Shown here in pieces: positions 34,964 to 63,471 of a stretch of DNA of 64,000 nt. Position numbers and translations under genes: made by a program. Within the stretch, counting starts at the first letter, position 1, and the number at the start of each line of letters is the position of its first letter. The stretch is from positions 1 to 64,000 of the IMG/VR virus record IMGVR_UViG_3300017971_000035; one strand, 5' to 3'. Origin of the DNA: a virus. A model generated the notes under the pieces. The model made no database searches and was not told the origin of the DNA. It saw nothing but the letters and a program-made list of their open reading frames with translations.

Positions 34964-37249
34964 TTAAACGCCCATAGGGTCGCCGGTTTCAGGTTTAGGT
35001 TTTCGACTGTCTCCTATTCTCATTGAATATTCTTTGATTTTCATGACCTTTGTTTTGAACGGTTGGTATGACATCAGCTCGGAGATAATCATTAAAATAG
35101 CTTCTCTCATTCCGGTCTGTTCAAATTTTCCCTTTTCAAGCCGCCATGATATAAATTGACGATACGCTTCTTTGCACCGCTTGTCAATCATCATCCTTTT
35201 CATTTTGGCCAAATTCATCAATACAGAAGCGGATCCGATGGGATCATATCTTGAGGCTTCCCTTATTTTCATAAATTGAGTGCTTCCGATTTTTCGCCAG
35301 AAATGAGCATCCATTTCCTTTTTAAAGGTTCTTTTGAAATCTTCGAACATGACCTTATTTCCATAGAGTTTGTCCACACGGACCTTACTCATCTGCATCT
35401 TTCGGACAAGCAGACTGCTTAGGAGATCGGTATTAATCATTTCCATTGAAACCTCGTCATAGACAGACAGGAAATTTTTCTCCTCGTCCCATACGGCAAA
35501 TAGGCCATTGACCGACAGGTCCTGGTTGAGGACAAGGGCCCCATAATGCCGGTTCCTGAAGTCAGGAGCTGACCAATCAATCTGAGTGGATCCCATGTGC
35601 ATGTAACCCAGAGAATCGATAATCTGTTTGCGGCCCCCGGACTTCGGAAGGAAAGCCATGACCATCGCATCAGCTTCATCAGGGGAGGCGATTCCCCTTT
35701 TCATCATCTGAGATTTGGATTCACATTTTATCTTTCCAGACTCAGTAATCAGCATTTTCGGGGAAGCGAGCTGGGCAATGAGGTTTCCCTGGTTTGGGAT
35801 ACTGATGAGTTCAGACTCATCGTATTTACGGATTCCATTGACATGTTCGAAGGTCTTTTCGAACCGGCGCCGCATCCTGTACCACCACTCGGCCCGGGCA
35901 TTGACAAAGGCATCTTTGGCCTTTTTTTCCAATTCATCATAAAATATGTCAGATGGCGGATCACCCGCATCCAGGGGGTAATGCGGAAATTTGATAACCC
36001 GTTCCGTCCTGTTTATCGTAGAATAGACCGCATGGCCCACTCCGATTTTATCATAGTGGAAAAAATCAACAAGAGCCTTATTGCACAAATCAATGGCCGT
36101 ATGGGCCAAGTCTGTCCCATTTTCAATGTTGAATGACTGAACCAGGGCCACAGGTCCATAATGGATAGCCAGGGACGATTTATTGGTGCCTCCGGCTGCA
36201 ACATCCAATCCGGATCCTTTCTCGCCTACGGGCTTTAAATCGAGGTCTACAGCAGCCGAAATCCATTCAGGCTTGATAAACAGGCCTTCGACAGAAGCAT
36301 GGTAATTTACTTCTATTTCCTGGGCTACAACCACAGGGTCGAGAACGGCCAATTGTTCCTCATGCCATTGGTCATCTTTCCTGGGATCCTCTTTCCAATG
36401 AAAGGTAAACACCGAAACCTTTCCGGAATGACGTTTTTGGCCGAAATGATTCATTCCTTTGGGCGTAGAAAGGTCCATTTGACAATTCGTATTGGCAGAA
36501 AGAGCTGCATCCACCTTCAGCGGGAACTCCAGGGAGGCCGCTTCATCAACAAGGTAAATGGAACGCCGGCCACCGCGGCCGATATCCGGTCCACCTTGGC
36601 CAACGATATTTGAACCCATCTCAGGATTGATTAAATTACCCCATTTGTCGTGTTTTCGCTTATCATAGCCGTGGGGCATCCAGAAAGGCGGCATAAATTT
36701 GATATAAGTGCGGATTTTCTCAAAAATACAGTCCGGATTGTCCTTCTGGTCCACGTTATCCAGCTTATTTGACCCAATTCCACCGGCAAACCCCTCAGTC
36801 CAACGCCATTCGTGCGTCATCATGAGGATAAAAAACCAGGTTGCACCGGCATCACGGGATTTTTCTACTAATCCGCGCTTCTGACGGAGGTAGTGTTCGT
36901 ACAACCACTCTAAAAATTCGATTTGCCGGGGAAATGGGATGATTGGAAGGAGGGTAGGAAGGCCGAGGGTCGCATTTCGTGGATCATAAGTCCACCCCCA
37001 GTCCATTATTCCATCAATAAGGTGTTCCCTTTGGGAAATATGAGTCAGAATGGAACGCATGTTCCAATCATTCTTTTCAGTTTCTATAAGTAATTCAGTC
37101 CTTCGGGCTATTTCCTGGTTAAAAAAATCATTCAATATTTCAATGTAGCCATCAGGATCATTGTACCTATGGGGGTTGGCTAATTTATAAGTGTCTACAG
37201 CGCGGATTACCAGCTCTTCATGCTCTGGCTCAGTCTTAAATTTAAACAT
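34964..37249 (-). CDS. terL: large terminase subunit, with extra C-terminal domain
   Basis: A 761-residue packaging motor. EKSRDAGATW (about residues 129-138) is the ATP-binding Walker A variant. IYLVDEAASLE (231-241) is Walker B with its catalytic Glu, and STPKG (261-265) is the coupling motif. The nuclease domain begins with GLDVAAGGTNKS (about 347), has further acidic residues downstream, and ends with SPDEADAMVMAF (522-533). It translocates DNA into the procapsid and cuts it. The protein continues about 200 residues beyond this, with RHYGALVLNQDLS and FLSVYDEVSM, which read like a second RNase H-type start. The small subunit is 11 kb away. Confidence 0.92.
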   Translation of the reverse strand: MFKFKTEPEHEELVIRAVDTYKLANPHRYNDPDGYIEILNDFFNQEIARRTELLIETEKNDWNMRSILTHISQREHLIDGIMDWGWTYDPRNATLGLPTLLPIIPFPRQIEFLEWLYEHYLRQKRGLVEKSRDAGATWFFILMMTHEWRWTEGFAGGIGSNKLDNVDQKDNPDCIFEKIRTYIKFMPPFWMPHGYDKRKHDKWGNLINPEMGSNIVGQGGPDIGRGGRRSIYLVDEAASLEFPLKVDAALSANTNCQMDLSTPKGMNHFGQKRHSGKVSVFTFHWKEDPRKDDQWHEEQLAVLDPVVVAQEIEVNYHASVEGLFIKPEWISAAVDLDLKPVGEKGSGLDVAAGGTNKSSLAIHYGPVALVQSFNIENGTDLAHTAIDLCNKALVDFFHYDKIGVGHAVYSTINRTERVIKFPHYPLDAGDPPSDIFYDELEKKAKDAFVNARAEWWYRMRRRFEKTFEHVNGIRKYDESELISIPNQGNLIAQLASPKMLITESGKIKCESKSQMMKRGIASPDEADAMVMAFLPKSGGRKQIIDSLGYMHMGSTQIDWSAPDFRNRHYGALVLNQDLSVNGLFAVWDEEKNFLSVYDEVSMEMINTDLLSSLLVRKMQMSKVRVDKLYGNKVMFEDFKRTFKKEMDAHFWRKIGSTQFMKIREASRYDPIGSASVLMNLAKMKRMMIDKRCKEAYRQFISWRLEKGKFEQTGMREAILMIISELMSYQPFKTKVMKIKEYSMRIGDSRKPKPETGDPMGV

Positions 37250-38611: not shown

Positions 38612-39572
38612 ACAATGGGACGAGAGTGCGCTTGAGAAATTAAAGCGCAGTGCTGAAAAGGAAGCAGCCAGTTTTAATAAAATCCGTCCTAAAATTACAA
38701 TTGACCATGAATACATAAAAAAAAAGCAAGAAACTGCTGCAAAAATAATGCAGGAAAAAGATCGATATGAACGCAGAGAAAAATTCAGAAAATATCTTGA
38801 CCTTGCAAACAGTATTCCTTCTGCGGCACCAATGCTTACAAAGAAAATTCTTAATGAAGTCCAAAAAGACCTGATTGGAATCTCAACTCCTAAAGGGCAA
38901 AACAGTTTTTATGAAGAAATACAAAAAACTTTTAATCAAAGGGAATCTCATTTGGCAGATGCTCTAGCGTACGGTAGGGCCGGCGGCATGTATTCCATGA
39001 GAGAAATGAATCCCAGTCTTCATGTTTTTTGGGATGGCTGGCGTACAACAACTTTTGAACTTGGGCAGAATGGATGGAAACTTGCAGCCGATCAGGATGC
39101 TTATGGCAGACGACTCCAACTTGTCTTCAGTAAAGATAATATCGTCATGATAGGGCAACCATTGGAATTTGATTATATGCGATATGCCCAAAATCCTACC
39201 ATGATGGATTTGAAGGAAGTGAGAATCAGACCAATTGCGCTGGATAAAAATATAACATTTCAATACATGGACAAATTAAACATATATGGTCTAAAGTCAG
39301 TAAAACACATACCAGAGATTTCCAATAGCGAGGTCACCTCTTTCGCCGACCTCGCTATTTTTCAAGAGAAAGAGGAAAGAGAAGTAATTATTGAAAATAA
39401 AGACGTACAATCCCTCATGAAGGAAATTCTTAAAATCCAATCAGAGAAACAAAAGGAACTCAGGGAAAAAGAAAGACTTGCCAGGCGGCGTGATGTATAC
39501 AAAGCTGAGAAAGGAGAAGGCCTGGTTGAAACAGTCCATGCAAAAATTATAACACTTGACCAAGTTTCATGA
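38583..39572 (+). CDS. phage protein of unknown function with STPKG motif
   Basis: Started at ATG 38583 (MAHSLNSPAEQWDES), within the end of the previous gene; 329 residues. A central stretch LIGISTPKGQNSFYEEI and, further on, HLADALAYGRAG echo terminase motif III and the final acidic motif, but no Walker A or B is present, so it is not a motor. Residues 140-250 are globular with Trp and Tyr. The C-terminal 80 residues are a charged coiled coil. It ends at an inverted repeat that includes its own stop codon. Function unknown. Confidence 0.6.
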   Translation: MAHSLNSPAEQWDESALEKLKRSAEKEAASFNKIRPKITIDHEYIKKKQETAAKIMQEKDRYERREKFRKYLDLANSIPSAAPMLTKKILNEVQKDLIGISTPKGQNSFYEEIQKTFNQRESHLADALAYGRAGGMYSMREMNPSLHVFWDGWRTTTFELGQNGWKLAADQDAYGRRLQLVFSKDNIVMIGQPLEFDYMRYAQNPTMMDLKEVRIRPIALDKNITFQYMDKLNIYGLKSVKHIPEISNSEVTSFADLAIFQEKEEREVIIENKDVQSLMKEILKIQSEKQKELREKERLARRRDVYKAEKGEGLVETVHAKIITLDQVS

Positions 39573-39704
39573 CAAAATGTCCTCCAAATATTTTGTCATC
39601 GGAGGGTGGAAAGGTACGCCGTTCCATCCTCCACCGCTCCCGAGAAAAGTTGCAAGCACACCCTATAAAATGGATGCAAGCACTTTTTTCGGGGCACAAA
39701 AAAA
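39570..39704 (+). promoter_or_regulatory. structured leader before the TGT/DpdA-like gene
   Basis: A 10-base perfect inverted repeat ATGACAAAAT / ATTTTGTCAT (39570-39600) includes the previous stop. A second stem GGAGGGTGGAA / TTCCATCCTCC (39600-39633) follows, with one G-U pair. Then TGCAAGCAC occurs twice, at about 39651 and 39674. No clear ribosome site precedes ATG 39705 except GGGGCAC. It looks like a regulatory or attenuator leader; no known riboswitch class is established. Confidence 0.5.
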
Positions 39705-40592
39705 ATGAAAGAACCGATAGCATACAACAGCGGAAATATCCGTTCAATAAACGAAACCAAGGCCAGCATTGAAATTGGAGCTCCCATTGGTATTACTGTT
39801 CATTCACAACAAAGTATTATCGAGCTGGCCATGGGTTACGCCTTCGTCGGAGGCAAAGTATTCGTTGATAATGGCGCTTTTACTGAGTACTCAAAGGGAA
39901 CAAACCTTGATATTGAAACCCTGTCCGGAAGATGCTATTGGGACAGTGTATTCGCAGTCTATCGTGAAATTGCAAGTATACCGTACGGAGCTGACAATCT
40001 GGTATTTGTAGCACCGGATCAGGTAGGAAATCCTGATGTAACTTTGAAAAATCTTGAATGGTTAATGTATGAAGTCCATGAGATTCGCAGCACTGGAGCT
40101 CAAATCATCCAGCCCATTCAAAAAGGAAAAAAGCCAGATTATGATATATCAGTCCATATTGCAGATTTATCAAATTGGTACTACGACTTTGAAAATACTA
40201 TCCTCGGATTCCCCTCAAAGCGAGAGGCTTGGCATGTATCAGAAGTTCTTGATTATCTGATGTATAAGACTTTATGGGAGAAGAGGCTTTCAACTACTGA
40301 ACCGGTTTGGTGTATTCATCCGGATTTGAAAATTCACTTCCTGGGGATTGGCGATCCCTTGAGGTTAAGCAAGATTCAAAAGTATATTGATAAAATCAGA
40401 CCGAATGTATTTGTCTCAGGCGACAGTGTACCGACCGGAGGAATTGTCGGCAAAGGCCGCAAGCTCACAGAAACTATGAACTCATACCTTAAACTTCATC
40501 CAAACTTGACCAGAGAAGAAAGAGGCGAGCTTCGCTGTAAAATCCTCTCGGGAATTGAATGGACGAAACGTCAACAACACACTTTAGCATAG
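39705..40592 (+). CDS. TGT/DpdA-like base transglycosylase
   Basis: A 295-residue protein resembling the tRNA-guanine transglycosylase superfamily, in the form used by phages (DpdA). VFVDNGAFTEYSKG (about residues 52-65) matches the VDSGGFQ catalytic region with its Asp. NLVFVAPDQVGNPDVTLKN (about 105) and AQIIQPIQKGKK (about 135) resemble the barrel strands. HFLGIGDPLRLSKI (about 208) corresponds to the family's LMGVGxPxDL. DpdA-type enzymes exchange guanine in DNA for a 7-deazaguanine, which protects phage DNA from restriction; tRNA is the alternative target. No partner preQ0 genes are in this window, so the base would come from the host or from outside the window. A structured leader precedes it. 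Confidence 0.65.
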   Translation: MKEPIAYNSGNIRSINETKASIEIGAPIGITVHSQQSIIELAMGYAFVGGKVFVDNGAFTEYSKGTNLDIETLSGRCYWDSVFAVYREIASIPYGADNLVFVAPDQVGNPDVTLKNLEWLMYEVHEIRSTGAQIIQPIQKGKKPDYDISVHIADLSNWYYDFENTILGFPSKREAWHVSEVLDYLMYKTLWEKRLSTTEPVWCIHPDLKIHFLGIGDPLRLSKIQKYIDKIRPNVFVSGDSVPTGGIVGKGRKLTETMNSYLKLHPNLTREERGELRCKILSGIEWTKRQQHTLA

Positions 40593-41278: not shown

Positions 41279-41520
41279 AAAGAGAAATTAAAGTAATAAT
41301 TAACATGGAATCAGATGAACCTGTTATCATCCAGGCTGATGATGTTAATCCCATAAAGGACATGGCCTGCTTATGTGAAGCCCTTTGTACTTTGATTCAT
41401 GCAGCTCATAAAAATGGAATCCGCAAAGACCACGAATCCCTCAAGCTCTGTATCGGCCATCTTGAATCAGGATTTGCTGATGAAAATTATAAAGTAAGGT
41501 TACCTGGTGAACAAGACTAA
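41275..41520 (+). CDS. small acidic protein
   Basis: Started at ATG 41275 (MVKREIKVIINMESDEP), overlapping the ASCH stop; 81 residues. Cys-rich helix ACLCEALCTLIHAAHKN at about 35-51. Unknown. Its end overlaps the DUF5131 start by 14 bases. Confidence 0.6.
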   Translation, partial: VKREIKVIINMESDEPVIIQADDVNPIKDMACLCEALCTLIHAAHKNGIRKDHESLKLCIGHLESGFADENYKVRLPGEQD

Positions 41521-42124
41521 AATAGAATGGTGTGATTACACCTGGAATCCTGTGGTGGGCTGTAAACATGCCTGTTATTACTGCTATGCACAGCGCATAA
41601 ACCAACGGTTCAAAATGATTCCAAACTGGACAAAACCGAAATTTTTTCCTGAAAGACTTACTGAACCTGCGAAAGTACAAAAGTCCTCAAAAATATTCAT
41701 AGGATCCATGTGTGACTTATTTGGTAACTGGGTCCCTAAGAAATGGATTGATAGTGTTCTGGAAGTATGTCAAGCACTTCCGAGACATGAATTCATGTTT
41801 CTCACAAAGAATCCAAAAAGATATCTTGATTATGAGGTTTATCCTGGTAATGTCTGGCTCGGGATGACATTATCCGAAGGAAATACCAAGGAACTTAGAA
41901 ATTATGTATGGCATGTACACCATACGCACTGGAAAAAATTTGTATCCATTGAACCTTTGAGAGGCGACTTCAGCAAATTTAATTTCTACCCGATGACAAA
42001 AATAATCGTTGGAGCCATGACAGGTCCGAATCCTGTGGTGCCGAGGAAACAATGGATTGATTCAATCATATCACATAACACTTTTTATAAAAATAACATG
42101 AAGGAGTATCTTGGCAGAAGATAA
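41507..42124 (+). CDS. DUF5131 / phage Gp37-Gp68 family radical-SAM-like protein
   Basis: A 205-residue protein that begins with GTG. IEWCDYTWNPVVGCKHACYYCYA (about residues 5-27) holds the CxxxCxxC iron-sulfur motif (CKHACYYC) of radical-SAM enzymes, in the form typical of the DUF5131 family. IFIGSMCDLFGNWVP, HEFMFLTKNPKRY and NVWLGMTLSE are further family blocks. KKFVSIEPLRGDF and KIIVGAMTGPNPVVPRKQWI follow. The family occurs widely in phages; its substrate is unknown, but it lies near proteins that handle bases or RNA. Confidence 0.88.
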   Translation: MNKTKIEWCDYTWNPVVGCKHACYYCYAQRINQRFKMIPNWTKPKFFPERLTEPAKVQKSSKIFIGSMCDLFGNWVPKKWIDSVLEVCQALPRHEFMFLTKNPKRYLDYEVYPGNVWLGMTLSEGNTKELRNYVWHVHHTHWKKFVSIEPLRGDFSKFNFYPMTKIIVGAMTGPNPVVPRKQWIDSIISHNTFYKNNMKEYLGRR

Positions 42125-45632: not shown

Positions 45633-45844
45633 CCATCTTCGTATTAACCGGACCTGACCAATGGAGGCATTGGTGCCATGAAAATTACTGGAATCGGAAA
45701 GACACTCGCATCGTCCCCCTCCAACGGGCCGAGCAGCTACACGGCCATGAAAATCCTATTGTCCTAAAATGGGGAACCTGGTATACCAGGCCAAGTGAAG
45801 AGCTTGACCTGATTGACCAGACCATAGAAGCCCTCACCCGATGA
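45629..45844 (+). CDS. small protein, unknown
   Basis: Begins at ATG 45629, overlapping the previous stop; 71 residues. TIFVLTGPDQWRHWCHENYW at the start, then Arg/Trp-rich sequence. Possibly a small accessory; no family is recognised. Confidence 0.6.
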   Translation: MTIFVLTGPDQWRHWCHENYWNRKDTRIVPLQRAEQLHGHENPIVLKWGTWYTRPSEELDLIDQTIEALTR

Positions 45845-46125
45845 GCCCCCTGGCAGCAGCCCTCCGCGCCATAGCAGCAATTTTTAAGCGGCGGGGTAGC
45901 CACTGCAGCGGTGACCCCACCCCCCCGAGCAGCATTCTCCGGCCATGCCCCTGTGGCAAAGACCCCCTCATCCGAAAAAACATTGGTGCCTCTGAACTGC
46001 ACTTCGGATATGCAGAATCCGAGTATGCTGTCTTCTGTGACTGTGGCAAAGCCGGACCTATAGGAATCACCCCTGAAAAAGCCGCTGAATACTGGAATTT
46101 CCTCGTGGAATATGACCGGATATAA
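45841..46125 (+). CDS. Lar-family restriction alleviation-like protein
   Basis: A 94-residue protein. CPCGKDPLIRKN (about residues 36-47) and VFCDCGKAGPIGITPEKAAEYWN (about 64-86) match the small zinc proteins called Lar/restriction alleviation: two Cys pairs, then GP and a helix ending AAEYWN. Phage and prophage members protect DNA from host type I restriction, at least in Rac prophage. The first 30 residues are unusual and may be an added arm. It ends the early small-gene run. Confidence 0.7.
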   Translation: MSPLAAALRAIAAIFKRRGSHCSGDPTPPSSILRPCPCGKDPLIRKNIGASELHFGYAESEYAVFCDCGKAGPIGITPEKAAEYWNFLVEYDRI

Positions 46126-48099: not shown

Positions 48100-48681
48100 C
48101 TAATTGAAGGACTTCTGGACGAGCCTTTGGTAATTGGCAGCAAGCTCCTGGGCTGTCTTACCCTTCATATCCTCTTTGGATAAGTGGAGATGGAGATGTT
48201 TTTCTCCCCCGCCTCCAGAGAGCCTGTTCAGAAGCTCCTTCAGTGCCTCGACCTTGTTGTAGGGCTTGACCACGATGTAAGGAATGCCTTGAGCATTGAG
48301 CTTCACAGTCATTTCCTGGATGACAGAGGTGTCCATATCCTCGAATTCCTCGAAAGTAAGGCCCAATTCACCATCCTGGAGCTTGTGCTTAAAGTCAGTG
48401 GCAATATCCTTAAAGTCAAAAAAGGCTATTTTGCCAAGTTCATTCAGACACTCATCGAGGGTAATATCGCATCGTTGTTTGGCACTTTGGATACGATTCT
48501 GAATTTCCCTCTTAACATTTGGCTCTTTTAGCCAGTTTTTGGCAGTTGATATCGAAATTCCTGTTTTTTGAGCAGCCATTTTCCTGTTATTACTCAGGAG
48601 CAGGCAGTTAATAAACGCATTTTGCTCTGGTTTTAGAGGGATGTCCTCGTCACGGGTGATGAGTTGCTTTGATTCGTCCAT
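48100..48681 (-). CDS. terS: small terminase subunit
   Basis: A 193-residue protein. KPEQNAFINCLLLSNNRKMA, then KTGISISTAKNWLKEPNVKR (about residues 40-59), form a helix-turn-helix typical of small terminase subunits, used to recognise the packaging site. A central oligomerisation region and a basic C-terminus that meets the large subunit follow. Unusually, it is not next to the large subunit but 11 kb away, on the minus strand, surrounded by rightward early genes. Confidence 0.8.
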   Translation of the reverse strand: MDESKQLITRDEDIPLKPEQNAFINCLLLSNNRKMAAQKTGISISTAKNWLKEPNVKREIQNRIQSAKQRCDITLDECLNELGKIAFFDFKDIATDFKHKLQDGELGLTFEEFEDMDTSVIQEMTVKLNAQGIPYIVVKPYNKVEALKELLNRLSGGGGEKHLHLHLSKEDMKGKTAQELAANYQRLVQKSFN

Positions 48682-49625: not shown

Positions 49626-49901
49626 GTGATATCTGCCATAGTGATGCAGATCCCGGGTTATAGAATGAGTCGATATCCTATGAAAATAGTCATGAGGATA
49701 TTACCATCATCCAAGGATTATCAAAGAAAACCGGTTCCACCACTCGTACCTGGGCATTCTGCAGGTATGGTTCTGGTAACCAGGTATGGAATTGGAAATG
49801 ATCGAGAATTTGATATGATAAGTACTTCCCGGCCTCGAAATATTATCACCCTGTTAACCATAGAATCCATTCACGGAGTATCCAGGAGGATTTCAGCATG
49901 A
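49626..49901 (+). CDS. possible small protein overlapping the SLOG gene start
   Basis: A 91-codon frame from GTG 49626 that ends as ATGA with the next gene. The composition (Arg, Pro, Ser-rich) is not convincingly protein-like. A shorter alternative from ATG 49664 is equally possible. The coupling with the next start is the main support. Confidence 0.35.
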   Translation: MISAIVMQIPGYRMSRYPMKIVMRILPSSKDYQRKPVPPLVPGHSAGMVLVTRYGIGNDREFDMISTSRPRNIITLLTIESIHGVSRRISA

Positions 49902-50311
49902 AAGTAATTGTGGCCGGCACCAGGACGATTACGGATACAGCGCTGGTTGCAGAGGCCATACAGGCTTCTCGGTTTCACATCACGGAGCTGGTCTCAGGCC
50001 ACTGCCATGGGGTAGACCAGCTCGGTGAGGCGTGGGCCGCCGAGAACAGGATCCCCGTGAAGCTGTTTCCGTTCCGGAGTGACCTGGGCAAGGCCGGAGG
50101 TCCCATCCGGAATACCCAAATGGCAAAATACGCTGATGCCCTTATTGCTGTTTGGGATGGTAAGTCCCGGGGAACAGCCGATATGGTCAGAAAGGCTTTT
50201 AAATACGGATGTCACGTTTATCAATTAAGGATTACGAATTATGACTTTTCATGTACCGGAAAAATACCGGATTATCAAGGGCTTGTTGGCCAGCTCGCAG
50301 CACGAAGGTAA
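49898..50311 (+). CDS. SLOG/YspA-like (DUF2493) protein
   Basis: A 137-residue protein. KVIVAGTRTITDTALVAEAI, then LVSGHCHGVDQLGEAWA and PIRNTQMAKYADALIAVWDG with KSRGTADMV, is the full SLOG signature. It forms a Rossmann-like nucleotide-binding pocket: GTR, SGHxxGVDxLGE, then GPIRN and WDGKSRGT. Family members sense nucleotide messengers or NAD-related ligands in phage defence or stress. It is the standard length except for a 20-residue extra tail. The 3' end overlaps the next gene by 71 bases. Confidence 0.88.
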   Translation: MKVIVAGTRTITDTALVAEAIQASRFHITELVSGHCHGVDQLGEAWAAENRIPVKLFPFRSDLGKAGGPIRNTQMAKYADALIAVWDGKSRGTADMVRKAFKYGCHVYQLRITNYDFSCTGKIPDYQGLVGQLAARR

Positions 50312-51847: not shown

Positions 51848-51923
51848 TGCAACTTAGCTCAGTTGGTTAGAGCAACAGAGAGTAATCTGTAGGTAGTGCG
51901 TTCGAATCGCACAGATGCAGCCA
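51848..51923 (+). tRNA. tRNA-like element with encoded CCA and odd anticodon loop
   Basis: 76 bases. The 7-base acceptor TGCAACT / AGATGCA has one A-A mismatch. The D arm is GCTC AGTTGGTTA GAGC. The anticodon stem is ACAGA / TCTGT, the T arm GTGCG TTCGAAT CGCAC, then G and CCA. The D and T arms are perfect. The anticodon loop is only GAGTAA, six bases without U33, so no anticodon can be read. It could be a degenerate tRNA or a tRNA mimic inside the structured RNA. Confidence 0.6.
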
Positions 51924-60453: not shown

Positions 60454-60791
60454 TGCTTTCTAAAAACCTGACCTTGCAAATACGAGGTCTACTGGAACAA
60501 CAACCGCGTCTTAGGGATGATGACCAGTACCTCGTTGCAATGGTATGGAGGCAGGAGATAGGCGAAGCAGCTCATTCCGAGAGCTGCTTCACCTTACTCG
60601 GTAAGATTGCGAAACATGAACTTTCACATTTTGAATCAATTCGTAGAATCAGGCAGATGATTCAGGAGGAAACACCGGAACTGCGCGGTGAGAAATGGCA
60701 GAAAAGACAAGACCATACTGTAAAAGTAAAGCAGGAAATCGAGGAAATAAGGCCTCATGCAGGTCCGCAAGAGAATTTGTTTGACAAATAG
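60453..60791 (+). CDS. small conserved phage protein
   Basis: A 112-residue protein. RDDDQYLVAMVWRQEIGEA, then HFESIRRIRQMIQEETPELR and GEKWQKRQDHTVKVKQEI. The pattern (LIxxVWRxE ... ESIxRxRxxxQExxPELRG) is shared by many phage proteins of unknown role encoded next to DnaB-type replication genes. It is helical and basic. Overlaps the previous gene by 1 base. Confidence 0.75.
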   Translation: MLSKNLTLQIRGLLEQQPRLRDDDQYLVAMVWRQEIGEAAHSESCFTLLGKIAKHELSHFESIRRIRQMIQEETPELRGEKWQKRQDHTVKVKQEIEEIRPHAGPQENLFDK

Positions 60792-61476: not shown

Positions 61477-62357
61477 TGGGTAGTGGTGGATATTCTTTTG
61501 CTTCTCGCAGTACCAGGGCAACAAACCTGGGTTTCCATACCAAAAGCATTCATGAAACCTTCTCGGCTCGTGAACTGAATAATGCCATGAATCCAAAAGG
61601 TGTCACTCTTCGTGAGTCTTGTGATTCAGAAGAACATCCGGAATCATTGGCAATTATCCTGGCTCTTGATGTCACTGGATCAATGGGTTCTGTTCCACAC
61701 CACCTGGTCAAAGATGGTCTCCCTCATATAATGAGTAAAATCATCGAACGTGGTTACAAGGATCCCCAACTTCTTTTTATGGGAGTGGGGGATCATAAGA
61801 CTGACCAGGCCCCACTTCAAATAGGCCAATTTGAAAGTAGCGATGAGTTACTGGATAAATGGCTGACAGATATTTGGCTTGAAGGAAATGGTGGTGGCAA
61901 TCAGGGTGAAAGTTATTTTTTACCTTGGTATTTTGCCGGCCATTGCACCAAAATTGACTGTTTCATTAAGCGCCAGAAAAAAGGATATCTTTTCACAGTA
62001 GGTGACGAGGATATTCATACTACCATTTCAAAATCATCAATGACCAGGATCTTTGGTGCTGGTGAATTTAATGATGAGATTTCTGCCATGGAGCTTCTTG
62101 ATAAAGCCAAAGAAATGTATCATGTCTACCATATTCATATCACTGAGACCGGAGCTGGCTCCAGGCCTGAGTGGCAGAATCATTGGAAAGAAATTCTTGG
62201 AGATCATTTTATTCCTGTGAAAAGCAGTAATGATGTCTCAAAGGTCATACCTGATATAATTTATCAGGAAGTGGACCCAGGACGTGAGCCGTACAAACCG
62301 GCCGCACCGCAGTCTGAAACCCAAACTGCGGGTGCGCCCCAAGATGACATCATATAA
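61473..62357 (+). CDS. von Willebrand factor A-domain protein
   Basis: A 294-residue protein. ILALDVTGSMGSVPHHLVKD (about residues 62-81) has a DxTGSMG metal-ion-dependent adhesion site. LFMGVGDHKTDQAPLQIGQF, then GNGGGNQGESYFLPWYFAG and KGYLFTVGDEDIHTT continue the domain. Such proteins assemble complexes, for example with AAA ATPases; no partner ATPase is within sight. The C-terminal 30 residues are Pro-rich. Overlaps the PurA-like gene by 14 bases. Confidence 0.85.
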   Translation: MMGSGGYSFASRSTRATNLGFHTKSIHETFSARELNNAMNPKGVTLRESCDSEEHPESLAIILALDVTGSMGSVPHHLVKDGLPHIMSKIIERGYKDPQLLFMGVGDHKTDQAPLQIGQFESSDELLDKWLTDIWLEGNGGGNQGESYFLPWYFAGHCTKIDCFIKRQKKGYLFTVGDEDIHTTISKSSMTRIFGAGEFNDEISAMELLDKAKEMYHVYHIHITETGAGSRPEWQNHWKEILGDHFIPVKSSNDVSKVIPDIIYQEVDPGREPYKPAAPQSETQTAGAPQDDII

Positions 62358-63471
62358 AGCTGTAATAGGATTAGGATTTGGAGATGAGGGCAAAGGTCTG
62401 GTAACAGATTACCTTTGCTCTGTCTCTGAAAATCCTATTGTTGTTCGCTTCTCAGGAGGCCAACAAGCAGGACATACTGTATGGTTTGAGGACCGTAAGC
62501 ATACCTTTTCAAATTTTGGTTCTGGTACATTCAGAGGGGCAGCCACTGTCTGGATGAATTCATGTACTATTGATCCAATCGGAATTTCAAGAGAATTCAA
62601 AATCTTAAAAGACCTAAATACCACACCTATTTTATATATCCATCCTGAATGTCCAGTTACTACTCCATATGAAATAGAAAAAAATCAACAGGACATAAAT
62701 TATATTCATAATGGCACTTGTGGAGTTGGAGTGGGTTGTACATGGCAAAGAGAAGAAAATAATTATCACTTAAGAGCTAAAGACCTTTATAATTTATCAG
62801 TATTAAAAATAAAATTGGACCTTCTTGCTGAATATTATGGATATACGACTCCAGAAATACAAAGATTTTATGCTGCTGTTCAGTCTATAACAAAAAATCC
62901 GTATATCTATATTCAACAATATACTTTTGGTATACATGATGATGTTATTTTCGAAGGTTCCCAAGGACTACTTCTTGACCAGGAAATAGGTTTTTTTCCT
63001 CATGTAACCAGATCATATACTGGTTCAAAAATGATATGGAACTATGACCCTGAGTATTATCTCGTCACTAGGGCATACCAGACAAGACATGGTGAAGGAC
63101 CAATGACCAATCGTGACATGGATCTAAACTTGACAAATAATGAACACGAAAATAATCAAGAAAATAAATGGCAAGGATGTCTTAGAACATCACCATTGGA
63201 TATGAATCTAATAAAATATGCAATTCAATCTGATGAATATATTTTAAATAGCAGTTATCTGAACCTCATAATAACTTGCCTTGATCAGCTTAAACCTCCA
63301 TATCATTATACCTTGGATCAAAAGGAAGTGAAATTCAATGGGCCATTATCAATGTCTGATGGCATACGATTTATTTTTAATAGAAGCATACGTGGATCAT
63401 TAGTAAACACATACTGTTCTTATTCAAAATATTCGGACGATTTAAAAAAGGCTGATGAAATTGATGTATAA
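62344..63471 (+). CDS. PurA-family adenylosuccinate synthetase-like enzyme (375 aa)
   Basis: Started at ATG 62344 (MTSYKAVIGLGFGDEGKG), inside the vWA gene end. GFGDEGKGLVTDYLCS is the phosphate loop with its catalytic Asp; SGGQQAGHTVWF has the catalytic His. FEGSQGLLLDQEIGFFPHVT, RAYQTRHGEGPMTNRD, GCLRTSPLDMNL and LIITCLDQLKP are the remaining blocks. The family adds aspartate to IMP using GTP; phage PurZ does the same to dGMP to make 2-aminoadenine. Here Asp is kept, which PurZ from phages such as phiVC8 replaces. The Lys of the usual TKxD guanine site is Cys. It is about 55 residues shorter than E. coli PurA. Confidence 0.85.
   Translation: MTSYKAVIGLGFGDEGKGLVTDYLCSVSENPIVVRFSGGQQAGHTVWFEDRKHTFSNFGSGTFRGAATVWMNSCTIDPIGISREFKILKDLNTTPILYIHPECPVTTPYEIEKNQQDINYIHNGTCGVGVGCTWQREENNYHLRAKDLYNLSVLKIKLDLLAEYYGYTTPEIQRFYAAVQSITKNPYIYIQQYTFGIHDDVIFEGSQGLLLDQEIGFFPHVTRSYTGSKMIWNYDPEYYLVTRAYQTRHGEGPMTNRDMDLNLTNNEHENNQENKWQGCLRTSPLDMNLIKYAIQSDEYILNSSYLNLIITCLDQLKPPYHYTLDQKEVKFNGPLSMSDGIRFIFNRSIRGSLVNTYCSYSKYSDDLKKADEIDV

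Follow-up and report, generated by a model that had tools for sequence, protein, structure and literature searches.

Does a phage gene from which single-sequence searches retrieve little encode an enzyme that exchanges guanine in DNA? The question is raised by one locus of an IMG/VR virus record (IMGVR_UViG_3300017971_000035; locus label G000), the first 64,000 bases of whose 70,356 bp are referred to here as the window. An initial annotation had placed a DpdA-like transglycosylase with a structured leader at 39570–40592. Position 39570 turns out to be the stop of the upstream gene, while the gene itself starts at 39705, and since the upstream stop comes before that start, positions 39573–39704 constitute a leader of 132 nt (Table 1).

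Table 1. Features of the DpdA-like locus, in window coordinates.
Feature	Position	Strand	Remarks
CDS, DpdA-like transglycosylase (putative)	39705..40592	+	295 aa, ATG start, TAG stop
Structured leader	39573..39704	+	three hairpins: 39573-39595, 39601-39632, 39636-39695
Direct repeat TGCAAGCAC	39651..39683	+	copies at 39651 and 39675, 24 nt apart, in the third hairpin
Candidate 12-codon leader ORF (MDASTFFGAQKK)	39670..39708	+	TGA overlaps the gene ATG (ATGA); from sequence only
DNGAF, residues 55-59	39867..39881	+	counterpart of phage DpdA DSGAF
VAPDQVG, residues 102-108	40008..40028	+	D105 invariant, 97/97
PIQKG, residues 137-141	40113..40127	+	Q139 in 87/97
HFLG, residues 211-214	40335..40346	+	H211 and G214 invariant, 97/97
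D240, proposed nucleophile	40422..40424	+	aligned with phage 9g DpdA D215; 96/97

Searched singly, the encoded protein (the window protein) obtained no meaningful family score in Pfam or PADLOC, and its only match to phrog_887 (queuine tRNA-ribosyltransferase) was short, covering 24 residues at E 0.0079. Direct searches of viral contigs returned no relative, tblastn gave 0 matches at E <= 1 among 50,697 phage records, and neither TGT nor DpdA was retrieved by sequence among PDB chains. Plasmids were more productive, with 44 records matched, including a Vibrio plasmid DUF6884 protein with 24.7% identity over 97% and Pseudomonas plasmid proteins with up to 34% identity over shorter stretches. 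Because the single protein retrieves so little, profiles from the plasmid matches were needed. A first alignment of the window protein and four plasmid matches, used as a profile, yielded 7 viral relatives; a wider profile yielded 71 viral loci, and 22 loci were found in bacterial genomes. One of the 71 viral loci, L084, belongs to a canonical DpdA phage with FolE, QueC, QueD and QueE, and was kept out of the family alignment to serve as a control; once exact duplicates were removed, 62 viral family members were left. The closest relative found, L015, is 47–50% identical to the window protein and lies in a related phage, 9 of whose ORFs match window ORFs (2 further matches are antisense shadows). 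There the family gene adjoins the small terminase gene, unlike its site in the window phage. In the Geoalkalibacter plasmid member (L002, 5992-7262), the domain is spread over two overlapping ORFs with an apparent frame change in its middle.

Kinship with phage DpdA was then evident from both directions. Of the record's 389 ORF fragments, a profile of 7 phage DpdA proteins matches the window ORF alone (E 3.3e-4, next best 1.8), and so does a family profile of 61 relatives from which the window protein and L015 had been left out (E 1.7e-42, next 1.0). When the family profile was run against DpdA proteins, RHEph06, VspDsh_1, CAjan and 9g (4/7) outscored every one of 5000 shuffled decoys; the DpdA proteins of CRB2, Dp-1 and Typha, as well as E. 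coli TGT, did not. Alignment-to-alignment comparison with hhalign joined the family to DpdA with Prob 95.6 and E 1.2e-8, and a second family alignment gave Prob 95.9 and E 5.7e-9. The corresponding comparison with a single E. coli TGT is uninformative, as neither the family nor true DpdA found a match to it. At E <= 0.1, phrog_887 is matched by 32/63 viral members, and Pfam TGT is absent among the families listed for the same 63 members; PF01702 had 0 matches in the window record, with control genomes positive in 14/14 cases. CP220 matched neither the family nor two PHROG models, so that its DpdA stands outside this comparison. In a maximum-likelihood tree, the 8 DpdA rows and the 91 family rows fall on either side of a split supported at 100/99, and the window protein and L015 form a pair on a deep branch outside DpdA; several long branches make the finer placement unsure. 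The description as DpdA-like is thus borne out by profile, tree and conserved residues, with the correction that the protein is not a member of the phage DpdA clade known so far. As judged from sequence, it can be firmly assigned to a separate, unnamed DpdA-like clade that has no Pfam model.

The motifs from which the locus was originally recognised (DNGAF, APDQVGNP and LGIGDPL, in TGT/DpdA order) all fall within the 295-aa ORF, and the matching columns are conserved in the relatives. Conservation was scored on 97 relative rows, near-copies counted, and besides the residues listed in Table 1 it extends to Asp55 (96/97) and Pro104 (97/97). The DpdA residues of catalytic type (the Asp of DSGAF, the Asp of D-x-IG, H-x-x-G and D-S) occur in order in the window protein and are kept in 96–97 of the 97 relatives. 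Two positions set the window protein apart: Asn56 departs from the Ser kept in 95/97 relatives, and the Arg found five residues after Asp240 in 54/97 relatives is Gly. The pairing of His211 with 9g His196 was made by eye, since hhalign sets the HxxG stretch two residues off.

The question of which nucleic acid such an enzyme would act on is best approached through the company kept by the relatives. Family carriers include plasmids of Pseudomonas, Vibrio, Shewanella and Alteromonas, stand-alone phage genes, and giant "polyvalent" phage proteins in which the family appears as a domain. Among viral loci, near-copies included, the ORF reaches at least 800 aa in 37/69, and an uncut ORF of at most 500 aa is found in 20/69; in plasmid and genome loci, 26/28 ORFs are at most 500 aa long. 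Polyvalent-type domains were detected in 6/17 phage ORFs scanned, namely LPD38 (L014, L071), ART-PolyVal (L013, L051) and InPase (L063, L067). One phage ORF of 1177 aa (L042:6561-10094) combines a C5-DNA methylase (PF00145, E 3.9e-42), the DpdA-like domain and a Mom-like domain, the Mom-like stretch scoring below the Pfam cut-off (22.7 vs 27.1 bits). By phmmer, the methylase fusion recurs in L116, and L056 and L058 match the Mom-like stretch. DUF6884 is fused to the DpdA-like domain in L001, L056 (the same protein as L057) and L059, and a PAPS reductase in L051 and, by phmmer, L050. In PMC11888242, DUF6884 is the domain of dpdC and DndB that of dpdB; PMC12839542 gives the DpdC domain as PF03883, which L001 also matches just under cut-off. 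In the control phage, a DUF6884 gene lies directly 3' of dpdA. Near the family gene, DndB-type genes occur in 3/28 and PAPS-reductase-type genes in 8/28 plasmid and genome loci. These fusions to DpdC-like DUF6884, C5-DNA methylase, Mom-like and PAPS-reductase domains indicate DNA as the substrate, and from this company DNA is the likely target of the enzyme. The earlier suggestion of DNA modification therefore gains support for the family, through its DpdC-like, C5-DNA methylase, Mom-like and DndB company, and receives no direct support within the window phage: neither its record nor that of L015 contains a match to DUF6884, DndB or Mom.

It is against this background that a TGT-like enzyme acting on host or phage tRNA, and thereby altering anticodon modification during infection, has to be weighed. 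In its favour, the PHROG names of the relatives are those of tRNA-ribosyltransferases, and structural comparison brings up TGT among the leading matches. We nevertheless regard it as unlikely: the fusion partners of the scanned relatives are C5-DNA methylase, Mom-like and DpdC-like domains, none of them RNA-modifying, the kinship is with DpdA rather than with E. coli TGT, and the phage record holds no confident tRNA gene. TGT, moreover, carries zinc cysteines, which have no obvious counterpart in the window sequence.

We consider it probable that the product of the gene is an enzyme of DpdA-like type, which exchanges guanine in phage DNA for a modified base supplied by the host. The enzyme activity, the DNA target in the window phage, the identity and source of the base and the protection from restriction that we infer would fit together as follows. 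The enzyme would bind double-stranded phage DNA and break the glycosidic bond of selected guanines, with Asp240 as nucleophile and Asp55 as acid/base, roles that we take to carry over from TGT chemistry; a 7-deazaguanine-type base, preQ0 or a derivative drawn from the host pool, would be seated in place of guanine, and the modified base would shield the phage DNA from restriction. A host origin of the base is proposed because base-synthesis genes were not found in the record, an outcome with which the host queuosine precursors suggested in the initial annotation would be in keeping. As the initial annotation had stated for the stretch in view, preQ0 genes are missing: QueC, QueD and FolE were not found in the whole 70,356-bp record, which may be incomplete, and the recommended search of the remaining genome for folE, queC, queD and queE returned none, queE having been sought by phmmer only. 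With FolE, QueD, QueE, Gat-QueC and QueF as queries, phmmer had no match at E <= 0.01 in the window record and, among the loci, matched only the control L084, which was also positive in both the QueC and the QueD search. Among the whole viral records surveyed for 48 of the 62 relatives, QueC was found in 1/48 (a partial match of 26.9 bits, in the record of L068) and QueD in 0/48. With QueC or QueD in almost none of the records surveyed, a supply of preQ0 is not part of the module. Phages with dpdA alone are described in PMC6884629, where host intermediates are suggested as their supply; by analogy, the window phage could be such a dpdA-only case served by host intermediates.

The same scarcity of QueC and QueD would also fit an enzyme that exchanges another base, or that erases 7-deazaguanine marks from DNA, for example against a host Dpd system, and on mobile elements the relatives do keep company with genes for self-marking or anti-restriction. 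What speaks against removal is the fusion to DUF6884: according to PMC11888242 and PMC12839542, this domain takes effect in dpd islands once preQ0 has been inserted, so that the fusion suits insertion better; we hold either variant to be improbable.

Modification by the DpdA-like enzyme had further been linked to a Lar-like protein as a partner against restriction. This protein (45841-46125, +) remains below threshold for TIGR03655 (20.6 bits vs a cut-off of 39.6) and matches phrog_599 at E 0.0017; nothing ties it to the DpdA-like gene, and the link is weak.

From a structural point of view, the window protein is predicted with confidence by AlphaFold2 to form a barrel (pLDDT 88, pTM 0.87). 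In a Foldseek search with this model, the top rank goes to sugar epimerases and the sixteenth to TGT, and VIA-align scores TGT 1q2r (Z 14.0, rmsd 3.6, 244 aligned), class II aldolase 3qm3 (Z 13.9, rmsd 3.8, 250 aligned) and DpdA 7ui4 (Z 13.7, rmsd 4.3, 240 aligned) nearly alike. For a second member, L011 (pLDDT 92), Foldseek puts TGT first, and VIA-align puts an aldolase first (13.7 vs 12.9 for TGT). Since aldolases tie with TGT and DpdA, the predicted fold agrees with DpdA and does not single it out. A TIM-barrel enzyme functionally unrelated to DpdA, with convergent motifs, might draw on these epimerase and aldolase matches, and is nonetheless very improbable given the motif order, the reciprocal DpdA profile matches above shuffled decoys, and the DUF6884, DndB and DNA methylase that accompany the relatives. 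The predicted viral structure that best matches the window model is that of an ART-PolyVal-like phage protein (TM 0.70, 25% identity), followed by that of an nt-1 protein of 464 aa.

Among the closest known systems is phage DpdA as in Enterobacteria phage 9g and CAjan (PMC6884629). Both proteins are stand-alone and about 300 aa long, and the order DSGAF, D-x-IG-(D/N)P, H-x-x-G and D-S is common to both. They differ in their surroundings: preQ0-synthesising phages of the 9g type carry folE, queD and queC beside dpdA, whereas none were found in the window record. In Vibrio phage nt-1, the family profile's only match in the genome (E 0.014; weak and short) is a 469-aa open frame in the preQ0 cluster, and this place in the cluster suggests that it is the DpdA2 of PMC6884629. 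It shares VHxLGxG and DS with the family; it differs in its greater length, in reading DSGG where the family reads DSGA, and in being accompanied by preQ0 genes. In bacterial Dpd islands (dpdA-C, PMC11888242 and PMC12839542), DUF6884 (dpdC) and DndB (dpdB) are the partners that recur beside plasmid and phage relatives; some relatives have them and the window record has none. Polyvalent proteins (PMC5512222) provide a further comparison, as the relatives are often domains of large ORFs while the window protein is stand-alone; the terms TGT, queu, 7-deaza and DpdA do not occur in the main text of that paper. Finally, PMC12839542 describes BREX-related capture systems in which a TGT homologue, sometimes fused to GNAT, is proposed as a DNA marker, a pair comparable, by its description, to the family's Mom-like fusions.

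What is described here is a variant on DpdA, a clade without base synthesis whose members occur on plasmids, as separate phage genes and within polyvalent proteins. The literature searched, with subscription papers mostly outside it, holds no account of such a clade. A 2023 NAR study reportedly covers further phage 7-deazaguanine derivatives, and overlap with its families is possible. Known phage DpdA genes were found via kinship or neighbouring preQ0 genes, according to PMC6884629. As the clade is diverse and fused to DNA-marking domains, 7-deazaguanine-type DNA modification may be more widely spread, and delivered differently, than described. As a tentative extension, which we find somewhat doubtful, the clade might make up a third class, apart from DpdA and DpdA2, of enzymes that exchange guanine in DNA. 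Mobile elements would deliver or express such an enzyme without base-synthesis genes, as one domain beside DpdC-like, C5-methylase and Mom-like ones in an injected polyvalent protein, and it would feed on the host 7-deazaguanine pool. If true, one polypeptide could set several different marks on incoming DNA, and the window protein would represent the class as a stand-alone protein on a deep branch. Whether a host-made base alone is enough for phage DNA modification, a question that the DpdA-only phages of PMC6884629 pose, could be tested with small stand-alone members.

The leader deserves separate consideration. It folds strongly (MFE -52.5 kcal/mol, z -7.2, with 0/200 shuffles as good), and it ranks 1 of 475 tiles in a scan of 33,001-64,000 on the + strand with 24 shuffles per tile; the second most strongly folded tile is 60561-60690 (+, z -5.7). 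The structured leader is thus real, though without counterpart upstream of the family gene in L015. Two inverted repeats and a direct repeat had been reported: the direct repeat and one perfect inverted repeat (39569-39578 / 39590-39599) were recovered. Rfam holds no family matching the leader at gathering score, and a riboswitch was discarded as an explanation, the best match (STnc410, 21.4 vs 50 bits) being sub-threshold and taken as chance. Paired copies of TGCAAGCAC occur at 70 loci in viral contigs, none of them leader-like at E <= 0.01. The leader contains no intrinsic terminator pattern, and no clear ribosome-binding site precedes the start of the leader ORF or of the gene.

Several other genes of the record may be mentioned. 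A PurA-like protein (62284-63468, +) matched phrog_1211, labelled 2-aminooxy adenylosuccinate synthetase, better than PF00709. A Z-genome (2-aminoadenine) reading was dropped, as the protein keeps the Asp in GDEGKG, a position at which, according to PMC12884076, each of 147 phage PurZ sequences carries Ser; judged by this residue, it is probably not PurZ. Just downstream of the DpdA-like gene lies a DUF5131 radical-SAM-type protein (41507-42124, +; PF07505, E 1.2e-39), which also matches the PADLOC candidate models PDC-M30B and PDC-M41B. The terminase genes, small (48100-48681, -) and large (34964-37249, -), are 11 kb apart, and the - strand small gene sits within a block lying mainly on the + strand. 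At 51848-51923 (+), ARAGORN finds a single tRNA-like gene, without determined anticodon, and 49898-50311 (+) encodes YspA, a cpYpsA-related SLOG protein (PF10686, E 9.3e-12).
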